Shown piece by piece: positions 26,165 through 36,352 of a DNA stretch of 43,851 nucleotides. The DNA is taken from positions 1-43,851 of the forward strand of contig JACZSL010000006.1 of NCBI GenBank assembly GCA_022574205.1, read 5' to 3'. The translations under genes were made by a program, and so were the position numbers. The notes under the pieces are model-generated. The model searched no databases. It had not been told where the DNA came from and saw nothing but the letters and a program-made list of their open reading frames with translations. Each line of letters opens with the position of its first letter. The first letter of the stretch is position 1. Source of the stretch: Patescibacteria group bacterium. GTDB lineage: Bacteria > Patescibacteriota > Minisyncoccia > Phycocordibacterales > JACZSL01.

Positions 26165-26235
26165 CGGGGTGTAGCATAGTGGTAGTGTACTCGGTTTGGG
26201 ACCGAGCGGCCCGGGTTCGATTCCCGGCACCCCGA
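26165..26235 (+). tRNA. tRNA-Pro (anticodon UGG)
   Basis: Acceptor CGGGGTG/CACCCCG, anticodon stem CTCGG/CCGAG with loop TTTGGGA (anticodon TGG), T arm CCGGG/CCCGG with TTCGATT, discriminator A. CCA is not encoded. It lies between the two halves of a second tRNA-Pro. Confidence 0.95.
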
Positions 26236-26294
26236 CGGAGTGCTTCTCCGACAGTCCGGGGGACTGTCGTGGAAATTTTCATAAAAAATTTGAA

Positions 26295-26322
26295 GGCCCG
26301 GGTTCGATTCCCGGCGCCCCGA
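26295..26322 (+). pseudogene. 3' fragment of the second tRNA-Pro
   Basis: Identical to the intact gene's 3' end (variable loop, T arm, acceptor) except one base, A to G in the acceptor (CGCCCCG). That change restores pairing with the 5' fragment's CGGGGCG. The 59 bp between the intact gene and this fragment hold two hairpins (CGGAG/CTCCG and CGACAGTCC/GGACTGTCG). Confidence 0.7.
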
Positions 26323-26456: not shown

Positions 26457-26516
26457 ATGAATCCCGATAGTTATCACGGACACTATGATAAACAACAAAA
26501 CAAAGTCGAACTTTAA
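26457..26516 (+). CDS. Upstream ORF in element copy 1 (19 residues)
   Basis: MNPDSYHGHYDKQQNKVEL, from the first ATGAAT into the element. The copy before ppa encodes the same peptide with one change (Y10H) and one silent change. The ATG coincides with the predicted transcription start, so it could be translated as a leaderless ORF. It ends 57 bp before the mscS start. Confidence 0.45.
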   Translation: MNPDSYHGHYDKQQNKVEL

Positions 26517-26579
26517 TATAAATTTAACACTTAGAGCAGAGACAGCTTCTGTCCGTGTCCTATAACTATCGGGATGAAT
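26457..26579 (+). mobile_element. MITE-like element, copy 1, with ATGAAT target duplications
   Basis: A 111-bp core (26463-26573) starts CCCGATAGTTAT and ends ATAACTATCGGG, a perfect 12-bp terminal inverted repeat. A second inner pair, CACGGACA/TGTCCGTG, is offset by a four-base bulge. The core is bracketed by direct ATGAAT repeats (26457-26462 and 26574-26579), and the second ATGAAT is the start of mscS. The same element lies at 36230-36352 in the opposite orientation with equal length and 9 differences in 125 bp. No transposase is encoded. Confidence 0.75.
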
Positions 26580-35710: not shown

Positions 35711-36235
35711 CTATTTATTGAATTTCTCTTTATAGAGTTTGAGACTTCTCTCGAATGCGGCTTTAGCTTCACTTGCCCCCTCAAACCCAGTAACTTCCAC
35801 TTTTTTGTCTTGAAGATTTTTGTATGTTGAATAGAAATGCTTGATCTCTTTTAGCGTGTGCTCGTTTATATCCACAAGATCTTTGGTGTTATCCCACCTC
35901 GGGTCCTCTGTTGGCACAGCGATCACTTTGTCGTCTGAATCACCACAATCAATCATCTTCATTAATCCAACCGGGCGCACCCGCACTAATATGCCAGGGT
36001 GTAGCGGAAATGTTGCTAGTATTATGACATCAAGAGCGTCGTCATCATCCCAAAGTGTTTGAGGAACAAAGCCATAGTCAAAAGGAAAATCCTGTGCGGT
36101 ATGACTTGCTCTATCGAGCGCAATGAGCCCAGTTTTTTTATCAATCTCGTATTTATTTTTCGAACCTTTAGGAATTTCGACGATAACATTCATCTCATCT
36201 TTGCTTCCAGGTTCTACGTCGTGCCACAAATTCAT
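35711..36235 (-). CDS. ppa: Inorganic pyrophosphatase, family I
   Basis: 174 residues, the normal length. It splits pyrophosphate and pulls biosynthetic reactions forward. Conserved EIPKGSKNKYEIDK (about 20-33), DFPFDYGFVPQT, the metal-binding DDDDALDVIIL and DDKVIAVP. The N-terminus MNLWHDVEPG is, to my recollection, the usual one in CPR homologues, which supports this start. The ATG is part of the right-hand ATGAAT of element copy 2 (36230-36352), and no Shine-Dalgarno precedes it. nusA lies just upstream on the same strand, so some transcription may read through from there. Confidence 0.96.
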   Translation of the reverse strand: MNLWHDVEPGSKDEMNVIVEIPKGSKNKYEIDKKTGLIALDRASHTAQDFPFDYGFVPQTLWDDDDALDVIILATFPLHPGILVRVRPVGLMKMIDCGDSDDKVIAVPTEDPRWDNTKDLVDINEHTLKEIKHFYSTYKNLQDKKVEVTGFEGASEAKAAFERSLKLYKEKFNK

Positions 36236-36352
36236 CCCGATAGTTATAGGGCACGGACAGAAACTATCCCCGCTCTAAATGTTAAATTTCTATTAAAGTT
36301 CGACTTTGTTTTGTTGTTTGTCATGGTGTCCGTGATAACTATCGGGATTCAT
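36230..36352 (-). mobile_element. MITE-like element, copy 2, with ATGAAT target duplications
   Basis: Same 111-bp core as at 26463-26573, inverted (36236-36346), with the same terminal inverted repeats and inner stem, bracketed by ATGAAT on both sides. The distal ATGAAT is the ppa start. Both stem arms are unchanged between the copies; most of the 9 differences are transitions in the loop. It fills most of the gap between nusA and ppa. Confidence 0.75.
36293..36352 (-). CDS. Upstream ORF in element copy 2 (19 residues)
   Basis: MNPDSYHGHHDKQQNKVEL, the counterpart of the ORF before mscS, with one replaced residue and one silent change. An AT-rich stretch with TATAAA lies 10-13 bp upstream. 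It ends 57 bp before the ppa start. Confidence 0.4.
   Translation of the reverse strand: MNPDSYHGHHDKQQNKVEL

Follow-up and report, generated by a model that had tools for sequence, protein, structure and literature searches.

MITEs are elements of ∼100 to 120 bp with inverted-repeat ends and a short target duplication, dispersed in many copies and accompanied by larger coding relatives that carry the same ends. A GIY-YIG endonuclease is used in eukaryotes by the Penelope-like elements, which are retroelements with a reverse transcriptase and without bacterial start-codon targeting. The T4 seg genes are free-standing GIY-YIG homing endonuclease genes (PMC2988022), small selfish genes whose sole protein is a GIY-YIG endonuclease and which lie beside essential genes, for the most part in matching orientation; homing proceeds by recombination into one long allelic site. 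In the phylum considered here, insertion sequences in the rRNA genes of CPR bacteria carry LAGLIDADG and a few GIY-YIG ORFs (PMC11270868). The repeats found in the window (the whole stretch of 43,851 nucleotides of Patescibacteria DNA that was analyzed) belong to a family that shares with MITEs a short form with terminal inverted repeats (TIRs), target duplications with empty sites, and a larger coding relative with the same ends. It differs in that the coding relative encodes a GIY-YIG nuclease and no transposase, and in that nearly every copy is sense-oriented at a start codon, where it restores the ATG. A homing-type nuclease (GIY-YIG) is present in the full-length form only, and instead of a single allelic site among relatives the family occupies the start codons of many unrelated genes, at sites empty in congeners; its ends are inverted repeats, its duplications are short, and some of its copies are non-autonomous. 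It also differs from the CPR rRNA insertions in occupying start codons of protein genes. The window repeats very likely belong, as non-autonomous (MITE-like) members, to a mobile family that inserts at gene start codons.

The two repeat copies in the window (26463-26573 on the + strand and 36236-36346 on the - strand) are each 111 bp long and identical to one another at 102/111 positions, with perfect 12-bp TIRs and ATGAAT on either side, in agreement with an earlier note on this DNA. That note had also placed the starts of mscS and ppa at the distal ATG, and Pfam matches bear this out (copy 1, MS_channel, E 6e-21; copy 2, Pyrophosphatase, E 3e-54). With the terminal T and A included, the element measures 113 bp, and its final A is the A of each host gene's ATG (Table 1). 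The true target duplication at both copies is TGAA (4 bp); the sixth matching flank base is a matter of chance, since mscS and ppa both continue with T and the element starts with T. Folded as RNA, copy 1 reached −30.6 kcal/mol, vs −14.0 ± 2.8 for shuffles (z −6.0). An Rfam search of the window returned tRNAs only, with neither element copy matched, and a group I/II intron or known structured RNA was rejected on this basis. At 26285-26321, ∼60 bp past the tRNA gene at 26165-26235, a tRNA 3′ end (ggcccgggttcgattcccggcgccccg) occurs a second time, possibly left by a further insertion event in a tRNA gene.

Table 1. Coordinates of the two element copies, their parts and their host genes in the window
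Feature	Position	Strand	Basis
Non-autonomous element copy 1, 113 bp including terminal T/A; last A is the A of the mscS ATG	26462..26574	+	
Left copy of the original mscS start, ATGAA; its TGAA is one half of the 4-bp duplication	26457..26461	+	
Right copy of the duplication TGAA at mscS	26575..26578	+	
13-bp outer stem (TIR), left arm	26462..26474	+	
7-bp inner stem, left arm, CACGGAC	26475..26481	+	
Inner stem, right arm, GTCCGTG	26551..26557	+	
Conserved 4-nt bulge TCCT (family: NCCT), on the 3′ arm	26558..26561	+	
13-bp outer stem (TIR), right arm, ending in the A of ATG	26562..26574	+	
Short ORF opening at the original start copy, MNPDSYHGHYDKQQNKVEL*	26457..26516	+	read from sequence
Internal ORF MINNKTKSNFNINLTLRAETASVRVL*, stop 8 nt ahead of mscS ATG; possible relay ORF	26485..26565	+	
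mscS, host gene 1, 359 aa	26574..27653	+	
Non-autonomous element copy 2, 113 bp; last A is the A of the ppa ATG	36235..36347	-	
Left copy of the original ppa start, ATGAA	36348..36352	-	
Right copy of the duplication TGAA at ppa	36231..36234	-	
Internal ORF MTNNKTKSNFNRNLTFRAGIVSVRAL*, stop 8 nt ahead of ppa ATG	36244..36324	-	
ppa, host gene 2, inorganic pyrophosphatase, 174 aa	35711..36235	-	

The genome to which the window belongs (650 kb, hereafter G000) gave 14 BLAST matches to the window element and 41 matches to its TIR at ≤1 mismatch, vs 7 for a reversed-pattern control; inspection of flanks resolved about 20 elements in at least three interior classes. Right ends in this genome form the ATG of ssb, a ROK-type kinase, pgk, murB, nth, rpmJ and others (assignments read from translation starts). 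Across the order, a search pattern made up of the two ends and a 72- to 102-bp spacer, without any ATG, had matches in 91/397 genomes and 55/179 genera (maximum, 19 copies in one genome), and its reversed control had none (0). A scan of the phylum with the end pattern matched 19/380 genomes, and viral contigs searched for the element gave two weak matches only. Relatives identified by pattern include one MAG of Patescibacteria and one of Ca. Campbellbacteria. Elements also occur within one another: at L010 one element occupies the start codon of a small ORF that itself lies within another element, and at L163 (G353) a second element follows within the same start codon. Another same-ended class in G000 has the interior AAAGCTATAGC...GCGATGGCAGG (C14:12945-13078(-), C15:26700(-) and C2:30149), and in its C14 copy a 43-aa ORF opens at the left ATG and closes with a TAA 8 nt ahead of the gene's ATG. 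L016, L030 and L175 of G000 contain nested GC-rich palindromes (CCTGTCTGCGTGCGGACACGTACAGGCAGACGG; CCTGCCGGGCAGGCAGG) beside the stem. L098 (G048:C21:15888-15996) has TCCCGTTAG/CTAACGGGA ends on either side of a tRNA-like sequence, as though the ends had captured a tRNA gene or come to flank one.

Counts of start codons and duplications were based on 97 distinct elements extracted by their ends alone. An ATG adjoined the element in 93/97, followed by at least 30 open codons in 89 of those, and element orientation (from the asymmetric bulge) agreed with gene sense in 61/66 orientable cases. The earlier note was right to propose an element that lands at gene starts and adds a leader to an otherwise intact gene, and same-ended classes with other interiors behave alike. 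The same note had read the repeats as a non-autonomous element that duplicates 6 bp; non-autonomous insertion stands, but the duplication is 2 to 5 bp long, with a mode of 4 (after the element's A, n = 97: 4 bp in 58, 3 bp in 13, 2 bp in 7, 5 bp in 3, 1 bp in 1, none recognizable in 15). Nor is ATGAAT as such the target: left copies include ATGTA, ATGGA, ATGAG, ATGCG, ATGGG, ATGTT and GTGAA, and the duplication is usually TGNN, bases 2 to 5 of the target gene, with variable bases that agree between left and right. Because target bases +2 to about +5 are duplicated, the original start and its upstream signals remain at the left end. Read from the sequence, the final A of the right end and the TG of the target's start codon rebuild the ATG, and this A is the element's own, since GTG left copies turn into ATG on the right. 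In a subclass (L008/L017, L041, L044, L061, L113, L152, L166), GAC(C/T)TG or GACAAG replaces the left start-codon copy and forms a palindrome, GGGACNNGTCCC, with the element's left end.

Empty sites in close relatives, which the earlier note had asked for, were found at two loci. The proS and pbp2 genes of G207 carry elements, and their orthologues in 9/9 congeners are without them; the left flank at proS retains the proS promoter (TATACT-N7-ATGAG), and that at pbp2 retains the short gap behind the upstream gene's stop. The simplest reading of these comparisons is insertion rather than loss. A strong conserved hairpin right at the start codon might also be a fixed regulatory leader (a riboswitch or thermosensor-like hairpin) common to a regulon, a version of which the earlier note had entertained as a regulatory unit. 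However, the two loci are empty in all nine congeners, target duplications are present, Rfam did not match the window elements, and the downstream genes are unrelated (mscS, ppa, ssb, pgk, murB, murG, topA, glyS, proS, pbp2, rpmJ and more, with housekeeping genes among them). The idea gains no support from these data and is largely refuted by the empty sites and duplications; we consider it extremely improbable.

The location at start codons could in principle reflect some other feature of gene starts. A −10 box lies 5 to 10 nt upstream in 44/92 element left flanks (shuffled, 15.5), but insertion at transcription start sites was rejected because background genes of G207 carry such boxes at a similar rate (33/84; the counts were 28/68 in G340 and 6/28 in the window) and pbp2 lies inside an operon; the start codon, and not the transcription start site, is thus the common feature. 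Neither leaderless promoters nor operon position accounts for the location, and the explanation must lie in targeted insertion or in very strong selection that acts at once. The second of these could operate if insertion had no start-codon preference (TNNA/TGRA target, 4-bp duplication) and only start-codon copies were retained, those within genes being lethal and those elsewhere failing to express the nuclease described below or decaying quickly; only sense start-codon copies would express it, as the full-length ORF uses the target's start. The target bases past the start codon are indeed biased to TGRA, non-start copies with TAAA, TAGA, TTGA and TTATA duplications exist, and elements away from gene starts include L093, L096, L133, L136 and L147 and, in other groups, L240, L241 and L245. 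Yet G353 has nine near-identical, hence recent, copies (89-100% identity to the query copy), and every one is at an ATG (9/9), as are 15/15 elements in G207 with duplications that include TGGG, TGCG, TGTT and TGAG. Among non-coding TGRA sites in sampled stretches, 83 lay at called starts vs 579 in intergenic DNA (∼7:1 in favor of the latter), so that 12.5% would be expected at starts, yet 12/12 elements in these stretches adjoin ATG; moreover, non-autonomous copies need no nuclease expression and sit at starts too. Survivorship alone is disfavored given the recent G353 copies, and retention without targeting strikes us as somewhat doubtful. As an observation on the same genomes, Shine-Dalgarno-like motifs are rare at starts (6/84 in G207 and 6/68 in G340, stretches L248-L257), which, with the frequent TANNNT boxes 5 to 10 nt ahead of ATG in these stretches, suggests that leaderless transcripts may be widespread.

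A longer form with the same ends was first noted as an ORF-bearing 277-bp copy in G207; a full-length element of this genome lies at C11:47249-47525. Scanning 337 genomes for elements of 266 to 296 bp with these ends matched 23/337, with members of 271 to 282 bp (one 269-bp match, in G013, is apparently not of the GIY-YIG type). The 21 distinct full-length elements, whose extraction demanded an ORF with a GIY-YIG-like motif, each encode a single ∼86-aa GIY-YIG protein and no other gene (Pfam GIY-YIG, E 3e-18 to 4e-16). The nearest solved chain is 1zg2 (E 2e-8) of UPF0213/YhbQ, whose members are closest by sequence but are chromosomal single genes generally without these ends. Alignment of the ORFs gave 35 invariant columns, including YTG, RKR, H30 and E50, and differences by codon position of 2125/1514/4073, which points to strong purifying selection. 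An ATG adjoins 19/21 full-length elements. The GIY-YIG frame opens at the target's original start copy in 13/21 (ATG NNT CCC GTT AGA GAT...), and its stop falls at +1 relative to the target gene start in 19/21, the TGA overlapping the rebuilt ATG (...CTA ACG GGA TGA, with the overlap GGATGA). Translational coupling between the two frames is thus a probable feature of full-length elements. Short copies were present in 18/23 genomes with the full-length form vs 56/314 others (p=3e-9), a test biased toward association since the same TIR pattern was used for both forms. G000 itself holds one full-length copy (C2:32352-32633, at the start of a 365-codon gene), and its nuclease may not move the window copies because the two TIRs (CCCGATAGTTAT in the window, CCCGTTAGAGAT in the full-length copy) differ at 3/12 positions. 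A related GIY-YIG ORF lies between an inverted repeat, ATGCCACACCTC/GAGGTGTGGCAT, in an apparent 16S rRNA gene at L317 (G011:C2:6000-7458).

The GIY-YIG protein is probably the mobility enzyme, judging by its conservation and its position as the only gene between the ends. DDE transposons typically combine inverted repeats with a short target duplication, and another transposase, for example of the DDE type, could be responsible, with the GIY-YIG ORF as a passenger or captured gene; such a role is possible because GIY-YIG proteins occur in 386/397 genomes of the order and most GIY-YIG genes examined are without such ends, and we know of no GIY-YIG domain that serves alone as a transposase. Against this stand the lack of any further gene between these ends at any sampled locus, the restriction of the 21 full-length elements to a GIY-YIG ORF, and the strong purifying selection on its codons, so that another enzyme seems unlikely. 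Other known classes were rejected as well: a classical IS/DDE transposon, as 21/21 full-length elements encode only GIY-YIG; REP/RAYT or IS200/IS605 elements (Y1 HUH transposase, no target duplication), as duplications are present and the ORF is GIY-YIG; and integron cassettes (attC with RYYYAAC/GTTRRRY, no target duplication), as the ends here are TCCCGTTAG/CTAACGGGA with duplications. The definitions of classical transposons, homing genes, REP/RAYT and integrons each fail on one tested feature.

The conserved ends form a 13-bp inverted repeat (TCCCG[T/A]TAG.../...CTA[A/T]CGGGA) in which stem positions 6 and 10-13 covary, being paired in 95-99% of elements vs 63-78% with swapped arms. A 4-nt NCCT bulge on the 3′ arm, then a 7-bp inner stem, is present in 45/108 elements, and this asymmetric bulged hairpin would suit recognition of folded DNA or RNA. 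How short copies allow expression of the target gene is less clear-cut. An internal ATG-ORF of at least 18 codons that reaches the gene is found in 43/89 short copies (vs 13 reversed and 12.7 shuffled), and 46/63 internal ORFs end in a TAA 4 nt ahead of the ATG, but the excess shrinks once related copies are clustered (12.5 vs 6.8 of 34) and is only suggestive. That such a relay ORF serves the gene is possible but somewhat less likely than not. The hairpin might instead let a ribosome skip the insert by bypassing or shunting, taking off at the left AUG and landing at the right one with no relay ORF: the two codons are identical, the stem starts 2 nt behind the former and ends at the latter, its pairing is kept by covariation, and short-copy interiors lack coding conservation. 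However, inverted repeats and a target duplication alone would give the same anatomy, and the full-length insert is by its sequence clearly a translated ORF that ends at the new ATG, which leaves bypass improbable. Three other candidates were rejected, namely, a conserved peptide (a search for codon periodicity in non-autonomous interiors found none), read-through from the left start (open in 24/88 vs 16/88 with the core reversed, a weak difference) and, as a general mechanism, an outward promoter yielding a leaderless mRNA (by inspection, right ends are without a TANNNT −10 box).

We favor with good confidence, as the best explanation of the whole, that the window repeats are MITE-like derivatives of a start-codon-inserting GIY-YIG element. 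In this scheme the nuclease would recognize the bulged hairpin ends, cut at start codons and move short copies in trans. The full-length element, apparently a parasite that lacks its own initiation signals, would take over the target's start codon and code to its far end, and the anatomy suggests that the target gene would then be reached by termination-reinitiation at the overlapping stop and start. Short copies keep the ends and the location and would have lost the nuclease; their rebuilt ATG may serve the gene via a remnant relay ORF, hairpin bypass or direct initiation, and the hairpin might hold the old initiation region beside the new ATG. The fullest version, a minimal transposon whose sole protein is a single-domain GIY-YIG nuclease that recognizes bulged hairpin ends, inserts specifically at start codons, uses the target's initiation signals, returns ribosomes via a stop-start overlap and spawns non-autonomous copies at start codons across Patescibacteria, we hold to be an evenly balanced proposition.

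No description of such elements was found in the open-access literature on Patescibacteria with MITEs, GIY-YIG or start-codon insertion, and they would thus be a previously undescribed kind of mobile DNA in ultra-small bacteria. If this is true, a mobile element has as its target the most tightly constrained point of a gene and is tolerated because it rebuilds what insertion breaks, and it is possibly a bacterial transposon run by a GIY-YIG nuclease alone. For annotation, short upstream ORFs and shifted starts at element sites are element-derived. The family offers a candidate role for part of the large set of small GIY-YIG proteins in Patescibacteria, makes gene translation testable in a group where Shine-Dalgarno-like sequences are rare, and shows a route by which selfish DNA may spread where genomes are streamlined and offer hardly any neutral sites for insertion.
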